NCBI RefSeq assembly: GCF_037039395.1
Contig: NZ_CP146242.1
Location: 1,911,001-1,975,000, forward strand
From: Agrobacterium vitis
Lineage (GTDB): Bacteria; Pseudomonadota; Alphaproteobacteria; Rhizobiales; Rhizobiaceae
Length of the DNA stretch: 64,000 nt
Direction: 5' to 3'
Shown: positions 14,270 to 60,803 of the stretch, in pieces
How positions within the stretch are numbered: position 1 is the stretch's first letter
Layout of the letters: every line of letters begins with the position of its first letter
Notes under the pieces: generated by a model
What the model saw: only the letters and a program-made list of their open reading frames with translations
What the model was told of the DNA's origin: nothing
Databases searched by the model: none
Program-made: the position numbers and the translations under genes

Positions 14270-14292
14270 GGGGAGCAGAAATGCACCTCTAA

Positions 14293-14373
14293 TCCCTCCG
14301 CCGGTGTTAACCGGATCAGGTTCCGCGGGTTGGCGTAAGCCTCTCAGCCCCGAACCAAATCGGAGCACCCCGT
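14293..14373 (-). ncRNA. TPP riboswitch (THI element) upstream of thiB
   Basis: The minus strand carries the conserved TPP-aptamer segments in order: GGGGTGC, GGCTGAGA, AACCTGATCCGGTTAACACC and CGGAGGGA. It lies 60-140 bp before thiB. With TPP bound, it should shut down thiBPQ, here most likely at translation, because a ribosome-binding-site hairpin rather than a T-run hairpin follows it. Confidence 0.95.
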
Positions 14374-14711
14374 TAGAGTATTATGTGCAGATGTAACTGG
14401 GCGGTCATGTGCTGGCAAGGGGTGGAAAAGAGGAATGGTACGATCCGCACGCCACTATGACAGATCATGTTTACGTCCAATTATGCCAAGGCCGATGTTT
14501 TCTTGGCATAGTTTGACGCGGCTATTTAACCCGTTCCATACACGCTGATTTTAGGTGTCGCGTATTATCAATGTTGTGGTGGGGCGTGCCACTTCTGTTT
14601 GAGGTTACAAGAGGTGTGATGGTCACATCACTTGCAATCATATCTTGATTGCGACATAATGTTAAAATTATTGTCGCATATTGGTTTTTAGCCGTTATCA
14701 CGGAGTTTGTC
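14374..14711. other. AT-rich gap between thiB leader and orphan gene
   Basis: It must hold the thiB promoter (minus) and the start region of the orphan gene (plus). AT content rises markedly from about 14450. I recognise no gene, repeat or regulator site. Confidence 0.4.
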
Positions 14712-17610: not shown

Positions 17611-17729
17611 CCAAGCAGACTGTGACATTGCCCTTGGGGCCCTCTCCACAGGCGCTCGCAATATCAGAATTCATTGGGCCGTTTCCGCGTGCCACCGCAT
17701 CATGCCAATAGCCGTTAACAATGGCAGTC

Positions 17730-17826
17730 GGTATTCCGTTGCGACTATCTCAAGCCTTTAAGGCACTTGAGATGGTCGTTTTTTTTTCAAGGCAGGGACG
17801 CGTGAGCGTCTTCGGGCCTTGGTATA
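17730..17826 (+). repeat. Two-stem structured element, copy 1
   Basis: Starts with GTATTCC (17731). Stem 1: CGACTATCTCAAG (17742-17754) pairs with CTTGAGATGGTCG (17766-17778), one G-U pair, followed by nine T residues. Stem 2: CAAGGC (17788) pairs with GCCTTG (17816-17821) and encloses GACGC-GTGA-GCGTC. Ends CTTGGTAT. It points at the small gene at 17895. Related copies are at 23171 and 48605. It could be a RIME-like rhizobial mosaic element. Confidence 0.7.
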
Positions 17827-17894
17827 ACACACAAGAGACAGAGCATTTCCTTGAGCGTCCCTGGCGCTGGAAATGGTCCCACTAGAGGCTGGAT

Positions 17895-23075: not shown

Positions 23076-23170
23076 ACCTTGCTGCGGTGCAACTGATCTT
23101 TTCATTGATTCGTAACGGGTGAAGGCGTAAATAACCGTCTTATACGAAGATTCATTGAAAATGACTCTTC

Positions 23171-23268
23171 GTATTCCCTTTGAAAATATCTCAAGCCTTT
23201 GACGCATTTGAGATATTTTCAATTTTTCAAGTCGAGGATGCGTCAGCATGTCAGAGACTTGGTATTAT
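23171..23268 (+). repeat. Two-stem structured element, copy 2, before metA riboswitch
   Basis: GTATTCC (23171), then a perfect 15-bp stem 1, TTGAAAATATCTCAA (23180-23194) with TTGAGATATTTTCAA (23208-23222), and TTTTTC. Stem 2: CAAGTC (23228) with GACTTG (23256-23261), enclosing ATGC-GTCA-GCAT. Ends CTTGGTATTAT. The SAM-II aptamer begins at the next base (23269). Confidence 0.7.
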
Positions 23269-23321
23269 CGTGGTGATTTGGCCGGCCGGCTTGCAGCCAC
23301 GTAAAATAAGTCGCTAAAGGG
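23269..23321 (+). ncRNA. SAM-II riboswitch upstream of metA
   Basis: Pseudoknotted SAM aptamer. P1 CGTGG (23269-23273) pairs with CCACG (23297-23301). The conserved GATTT (23275), TTGCA (23291) and GCTAAAGGG (23313-23321) are in the right order and spacing. SAM-II is the standard alphaproteobacterial metA/metC regulator; binding SAM would hide the translation signal or otherwise lower metA expression. It ends 85 bp before metA. Confidence 0.92.
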
Positions 23322-23406
23322 CCGAGGCAAGTTATCCAAGACTTTCCGAGGCCGATGGCGATAGCAAAGCTGCCGTACCGTGCCGTGACAGGAAAGTTTA
23401 AAGCCG

Positions 23407-48604: not shown

Positions 48605-48699
48605 TACCAAGGCACCGAAATGTTTATATATTCACGCCTTGAAGGCATTGCAAAACTCTCATACGCATCAGTTGGTCGACAGTTTTGCAAAAGGAATAC
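48605..48699 (-). repeat. Two-stem structured element, copy 3
   Basis: Read on the minus strand: GTATTCC (48699-48693), stem 1 TTGCAAAACT / AGTTTTGCAA (10 bp, arms 48690-48681 and 48657-48648) with a longer 23-base loop, then stem 2 CAAGGC (48641-48636) with GCCTTG (48613-48608) and final CTTGGTA. Its 3' end is only 8 bp before the glycosyltransferase start. The inner hairpin seen in copies 1 and 2 is weak here. Confidence 0.65.
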
Positions 48700-48853
48700 G
48701 AACGGTCATGTTCGATGACTGTTGGTATTCTTCGCCCGGGAATATACGGCTGGTCTGGTGCAGGGCTTGTCATGCATCCAGCTTGAGGAAACATTGCCTC
48801 TCTATGGGTTTGCCCTTGCACAACCCTGTTGCATTTGTTTCGGAAAACCCTGC

Positions 48854-60619: not shown

Positions 60620-60803
60620 CGCATCATCCTCATGGGTTGGGTTGCCCCAAACCTCGGGTTTTCCTGTGCCAAAAACAAGACGCAAAGCCAAAAATCACCC
60701 GAGGGCGCATCGCGCTGTCGGGTGTTGACCTCCGGGAACTCTTTATACCTTTACGGGTCCCGGTCGGCGGCTCGGAGTCATGTCTCGTCGCAGATTTGGG
60801 AGG

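Follow-up and report, generated by a model that had tools for sequence, protein, structure and literature searches.

A repeat of 122–123 bp, present three times in the window (the whole 64,000-nucleotide stretch analysed here, G000:C2:1911001-1975000 of a 6.04-Mb genome), is very probably a non-autonomous, MITE-like transposable element of ~122 bp, bounded by TACSAAG/CTTGGTA ends and built of three palindromes. Its copies are accompanied by a 3-bp target duplication, vary in presence between related genomes, lie between genes and keep their palindromes paired; it is the TNA-type duplication, together with the empty sites in relatives, that leads us to classify it as mobile. The copies belong to a family of small mobile repeats that has been active recently; a search of titles and abstracts yielded no description of it.

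An earlier note on this DNA had reported a three-copy, two-stem element, and alignment confirms related sequences at all three places, in the orientations given and with the stems as written. The outline of the element changes on closer inspection. Every copy begins 27–28 bp further 5′ than had been drawn, and the GTATTCC that the note took as the shared start is the 3′ arm of an overlooked first palindrome (TACSAAGRGTCATT-GAA-AATGACYCTTCGTA, extending upstream), so that each element carries three hairpins and not two (Table 1). Three copies are likewise the window's share only. The covariance model that the note had proposed, here built from 35 copies (R1), gives 96 matches in its own genome at E ≤ 0.01 (150 of 1,293 first-look candidates scored; a few reverse-strand hits on palindromes and some partial matches included), with further matches in some relatives. 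Six of the short matches were inspected, and four of them, 83–93 bp long with triplets, are without hairpin 2. A BLAST search with copy 2 returns 51 matches in the same genome (40 of 81 candidates scored), ~10 of these being reverse-strand matches to the palindrome. The three window copies and 32 more from the same genome align over 121–124 bp plus flanking triplets, a length too short to encode a transposase, as in MITEs.

Table 1. Features of the repeat and its surroundings. Positions are those of the window unless a genome is named; bounds of the copies exclude the flanking triplets.
Feature	Position	Strand	Basis and remarks
Copy 1	17703..17824	+	122 bp; alignment A1; older, degraded; flanks TCA (17700-17702) and TAA (17825-17827)
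Copy 1, hairpin 1	17703..17733	+	Fold; the earlier note had its 3′ end only
Copy 1, hairpin 2 (stem 1 of the earlier note)	17741..17779	+	Fold and sequence; T run after it
Copy 1, hairpin 3 (stem 2 of the earlier note)	17787..17822	+	Fold
Copy 2	23143..23264	+	122 bp; recent insertion; filled in G000 and G064
Copy 2, hairpin 1	23143..23173	+	Fold; bears the left terminal inverted repeat TACGAAG
Copy 2, hairpin 2	23180..23222	+	Fold
Copy 2, hairpin 3	23227..23262	+	Fold; right terminal inverted repeat CTTGGTA at 23258-23264
Copy 2, left target-site duplicate TTA	23140..23142	+	Triplet test, empty-site alignment
Copy 2, right target-site duplicate TTA	23265..23267	+	Triplet test, empty-site alignment
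Copy 3	48605..48727	-	123 bp; recent insertion; filled in G000 and G012
Copy 3, hairpin 1	48697..48727	-	Alignment A1; missing when copy 3 is folded by itself at minimum energy
Copy 3, hairpin 2 (TTGCAAAACT/AGTTTTGCAA)	48648..48690	-	Sequence and alignment A1
Copy 3, hairpin 3 (CAAGGC/GCCTTG)	48608..48641	-	Sequence and alignment A1; missing when copy 3 is folded by itself at minimum energy
Copy 3, left (5′) target-site duplicate GAA	48728..48730	-	Triplet test, empty-site alignment
Copy 3, right (3′) target-site duplicate GAA	48602..48604	-	Triplet test, empty-site alignment
SAM-II (SAM_alpha) riboswitch	23260..23337	+	Rfam RF00521, 80 bits; neighbour of copy 2 that does not belong to the element
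TPP riboswitch	14276-14382	-	71.6 bits
Match to Rfam family ffh sRNA	60689-60739	-	63.9 bits
L040, copy with RIME-like repeat in hairpin 2 loop	G000:C2:490184-490416
L037, copy with RIME-like repeat in hairpin 3	G000:C2:3032128-3032250

The element ends in short, MITE-like terminal inverted repeats of 7–8 bp (TACSAAG...CTTGGTA), most of the distant relatives shown have TACC/GGTA-type ends, and the three bases beyond each end mostly read TNA. Identical triplets flank 19 of 36 copies at the right register, against 0–1 of 36 for every one of 16 further shifts, and the middle base of the triplet agrees in 26 (10.9 on average after shuffling, with none of 20,000 shuffles reaching the observed count). 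This set excludes six of 42 copies whose ends were poor, and it has copy 1 with a misplaced left end, which counts against agreement. In an enlarged set, from which 20 of 62 copies were dropped, the middle base agrees in 30 of 42 (mean 12.4). The GAA on either side of copy 3 means that the first base of the triplet is duplicated as well. TNA amounts to a stop codon when read on one strand, and the start of several copies does coincide with such a codon; we therefore tested for enrichment at stops and found none (7 of 49 copies, 7.28 expected; 13 of the 62 copies uncounted), so stop-codon targeting was rejected.

Comparison of sites across 63 genomes of the genus (own included; best loci aligned, with distant, partly matching flanks unscored) reveals that two of the three window copies are polymorphic. 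Copy 2, filled in two genomes (Table 1), is absent at the same place in seven relatives: judged by eye, the gap is exactly three bases in G085, G012 and G015, where it reads TTC, one base longer in G033, G086 and G063, and two longer in G011, whose flank is more diverged. Copy 3 is absent from G033, G064, G063, G086, G085 and G015, all six having an empty site that is, judged by eye, of exactly the expected length and reads CAA instead of GAA. With such triplets or a longer gap at the empty sites, the exact original target is not visible. Copy 1 occupies the same place in all eight genomes aligned there, own included, and mobility, seen as MITE-like insertion polymorphism with empty sites, is therefore demonstrated for copies 2 and 3 only. 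The SAM-II sequence adjoining copy 2 is kept in relatives with and without the element.

The palindromes are maintained as pairs. Copies 1 and 2 fold into three hairpins with z scores of −5.8 and −6.0; copy 3 alone has a best fold other than the three hairpins (z −3.07, with 3 of 200 shuffles as good). RNAalifold on the 35 copies gives 31 pairs, 17 of which have both sides changed in at least one copy (6.5 in shuffles), and 95.0% of cells are paired against 87.4% when shuffled. None of 500 shuffles reaches the observed value for any of five covariation measures, and sliding the partner columns lowers pairing from 95.0% to at most 38.6%. Fitch parsimony, using trees built without the tested columns (from a short alignment, and carrying no support values), places 31 double changes on branches, spread over the 17 pairs, which makes one single inherited event unlikely. 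The observation that both sides of a stem change together thus holds well beyond the three copies on which it was made. Maintenance of structure is supported; covariation does not tell RNA-level selection, DNA-level selection and arm-to-arm copying apart. Strand switching that copies one palindrome arm onto the other is known from the quasipalindrome literature, and the pattern here may have come about by any of the three.

Hairpin 1 also occurs alone, as a ~30-bp palindrome, at seven loci of the same genome (L156, where it has a short tail, L157, L159, L160, L163, L167 and L168). By eye, its flanking triplets match at L156 (TAA/TAA) and L159 (TCA/TCA) and mismatch at the other five; the solo form may be the smallest unit able to move, or else the product of an internal deletion. 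At L159, the matches of relatives are of nearly equal length (lengths being compared, not aligned bases), which lends no support to the solo hairpin as a deletion scar of the full element. Directly before this hairpin (L159:2893-2999; G000:C4, ~226890-227000) lies another repeat of ~105 bp, with numerous matches across more than twelve genomes of the genus; coordinates suggest that it is absent at the L159 site in seven relatives, so it looks mobile too.

We examined gene context for 62 copies (3 from the window, 39 from BLAST and 20 further model matches) with a rough codon-usage ORF caller. All are intergenic, none reaching more than 30 bp into a called gene, and their contexts are tandem along the genes (22), tandem against them (13), divergent (14) and convergent (13). 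The earlier impression that the element is always aimed at the downstream gene was a small-sample effect, since the downstream gene is co-directional for 36 of the 62. This bears directly on the suggestion, made in the same note, that the repeat is a structured leader RNA acting in cis on the gene behind it. Strong hairpins in copies 1 and 2 and the covariation would suit a leader, as would the positions of two copies: copy 3 lies just before a gene, and copy 2 does abut the SAM-II riboswitch, as had been stated, the Rfam match beginning in its last five bases (the gene behind the aptamer is a homoserine O-succinyltransferase, PF04204). We nevertheless find a leader RNA hardly credible. Orientation is near even, with 13 of the 62 copies between convergent genes; copies 2 and 3 are missing from seven and six relatives, most of the close ones, in which the downstream gene remains (at copy 2 the aptamer also), conservation beside orthologous genes being confined to copy 1 (8 of 8); and a covarying structure of RNA type is equally possible for DNA palindromes. 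Neighbours of the window copies have no common function by Pfam (an SbmA/BacA-type ABC transporter, an AAA ATPase, the homoserine O-succinyltransferase and a glycosyltransferase; two of the six proteins scanned are without a Pfam match), and no Rfam family other than SAM_alpha exceeds threshold on the window copies (a looser scan covered copy 2 only). The start codon said to lie 8 bp beyond copy 3 fares no better: that ATG is kept in G012, which has the same insertion, and is absent in the six relatives without it (GTG in five, GCG in one), whereas all eight genomes have another ATG lying further on, in ATGTCC.

More plausible than a leader, though still rather unlikely, is that an old mobile repeat has had its present copies recruited as RNA structures (terminators, mRNA stabilisers or attenuators), the covariation then reflecting RNA-level selection by the host. 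The strong hairpins and the intergenic position of the fetched copies agree with this, as does the retention of copy 1, the oldest in the window, in 8 of 8 genomes with a T run after hairpin 2; a terminator-like site is called along copy 3, where 0.2 of any kind are expected in shuffles. Against recruitment, the terminator scan calls nothing at copies 1 and 2, so that copy 1 was rejected as a terminator, orientation bias is slight among tandem copies (22 along, 13 against), and copies 2 and 3, polymorphic between species, already have their own paired stems. Upstream of copy 2, positions 23100-23142 (TTGATT-17-TAAATA) are largely conserved in the aligned relatives and promoter-like by eye, and were not called by the promoter scan. 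If this is a promoter, copy 2 looks to have inserted at the transcript start, between promoter and SAM-II aptamer.

Membership of RIME1 or RIME2, the rhizobium-specific intergenic mosaic elements, had also been raised, and this was right in kind: the repeat is, like RIME, a palindromic intergenic repeat in Rhizobiaceae, and RIME is reportedly of similar size, with two palindromes. Identity with RIME itself is very improbable. By its title, the original description places RIME in a two-component system (Osteras, Stanley and Finan 1995). In the plasmid collection, the 122-bp element is absent from Rhizobium and Sinorhizobium records at E ≤ 1e-5. We take the two-component type locus to be chvI-chvG; across the 80 chvI loci listed from titled records (one Sinorhizobium, no S. 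meliloti) R1 gives two matches that are not credible (E 0.87 and 2.3), and 20 pckA loci yield nothing at E < 0.5. The chvI-chvG locus of Rhizobium sp. CCGE 510 does hold an insertion that R. aethiopicum, R. vallis and R. phaseoli lack, with two palindromes around CTGCATAATT and GCGCGTC and different in sequence from the 122-bp element. It matches 260 plasmid records at E ≤ 1e-3, with a Rhizobium/Sinorhizobium distribution (183 and 71 records, respectively); one of the 260 covers 80% of the query, and most of the 30 listed cover 54–67%. This repeat may be RIME1 itself. Repeats of this RIME-like kind (CTGCATAATT...TTATGCAGCAG...GCGCTGTA) are found close to several copies of our element, and two copies have one within them (Table 1). 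The different sequence and these nested positions reveal two distinct families, the RIME-like one having inserted into the 122-bp element, which, as far as can be tested through the chvI-chvG repeat in place of the published RIME letters, is not RIME.

Other palindromic repeats offer partial likenesses. Bru-RS1 and Bru-RS2 of Brucella are reportedly similar to the element in size. Palindromes of the REP type, mobilised by Y1 (RAYT) transposases, would share its palindromic, intergenic and high-copy character, as well as the occurrence of hairpin 1 alone, but Y1 transposition is not known to make a target duplication and the element has one. The unit, at 122 bp, also departs from the 20–40 bp given for REP sequences (PMC3733652), and a REP origin is very improbable. 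Br-REP1 of Bradyrhizobium and Rhodopseudomonas is closer in layout, being intergenic and having three palindromes, each of which folds as a stem-loop; its central palindrome is CCGGAATCTCGAGATTCCGG, unlike that of our element, and a target duplication goes unmentioned in the relevant passages of its description (PMC5082802). Bru-RS1 and Bru-RS2 are palindromic repeats too, going by the title of their report (Halling and Bricker 1994). Bacterial MITEs (for example, ERIC, RUP and CIR of Caulobacter) are short, MITEs and CIR are intergenic by rule, and terminal inverted repeats with a target duplication are the features by which MITEs are searched, as far as one account goes (PMC10969869). The 122-bp element shares all of these traits, and is set apart by its three separate hairpins, covarying stems, 3-bp TNA-like duplication and the lack of a parent insertion sequence among those scanned here.

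The family is patchily distributed. Among 36 genomes of the genus (own included), a search of relatives gives matches in 9 and none in the other 27, five of the nine having at least 54 matches each, close to the 57 candidates scored per genome; outside the genus, 1 of 24 genomes has matches. In the wider family, at least 8 of 297 genomes (own included) match at E ≤ 1e-5, with 11 candidates scored per genome. Fifteen named plasmid records match at the same threshold (11 A. vitis, 1 A. salinitolerans, 1 Allorhizobium ampelinum and 2 Asticcacaulis), the closest being from Agrobacterium vitis and Allorhizobium ampelinum. Elements that keep the plan but have mostly dissimilar stems are present in G113 and G379 (three hairpins; one copy each folded), as well as in G368 and G315 (two large hairpins, 101 bp between triplets; one G368 copy folded), and the G368 type matches two Pannonibacter plasmids, at 12 and 9 places. 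By eye, matching triplets flank 4 of 4 such copies in G368, 1 of 1 in G315, 4 of 6 in G113, 1 of 3 in G379 and 0 of 1 in G272; in the further genera that have elements of this plan, flanks read TTA/TTA in Asticcacaulis excentricus and in Pannonibacter, and GGA/TGA in a second Asticcacaulis.

A strongly covarying hairpin plan shared by elements otherwise diverged in sequence is odd. It could reflect a superfamily of hairpin-built mobile elements, spanning Hyphomicrobiales and Caulobacterales, whose transposition machinery reads the fold and not the sequence; we offer this as a speculation that probably does not hold. On this view, a common plan would persist despite wide divergence of the stems from genus to genus: a left-end palindrome, an optional middle palindrome, a right-end palindrome with a GATGC/GCATC-type core, and a TNA-like duplication, with at least one instance of a lone ~30-bp palindrome that has its own matching triplets. 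Such a superfamily would require a type of transposase not yet described, one using folded single strands or cruciforms and yet duplicating its target.

No partner transposase emerged from 30 of 42 PF01609 and 15 of 15 PF00665 loci of the genome: none of these 45 has TNA-flanked ends matching the element in a strict scan, which wanted longer matching ends than the element's own. A scan of the fetched loci and of a 98-kb A. vitis plasmid for a partner insertion sequence likewise gave nothing. Two aligned multi-copy insertion sequence families were rejected as parents, their ends being TGGACACC... and TAAGAGGC/TCAGAGGC... and not TACC. Some IS5-type transposases are known to prefer TNA targets. 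One PF01609 insertion sequence, ~1.3 kb long and ending in TGGACACCTC, has at least 20 copies (G000, L201-L220 and further) that are 99.8–100% identical to the reference copy, from which it follows that other transposons have been recently active in this genome.

For the non-autonomous, MITE-like element that we favour, these features suggest the following course of events. A transposase supplied from elsewhere would recognize the ends of the element and insert it at a TNA-like triplet by what is probably a staggered cut, with a stagger of 3 bp matching the observed duplication. The copies lie between genes and in all orientations, insertions elsewhere having presumably been lost. Pairing within the palindromes might be kept if transposition depends on the folded strand, or if the fold makes the element harmless on transcription; alternatively, strand switching during replication may copy one arm onto the other.

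An apparent regulatory RNA thus turns out to be a mobile element, and the case serves as a warning that, for a palindromic mobile repeat, covariation and adjacency to a riboswitch or start codon are not evidence of a leader RNA. It raises the testable question of why the stems of a mobile element covary, and which transposase moves it. The finding adds a recently active repeat family to what, judging from the plasmid matches, is probably the Agrobacterium vitis/Allorhizobium clade.
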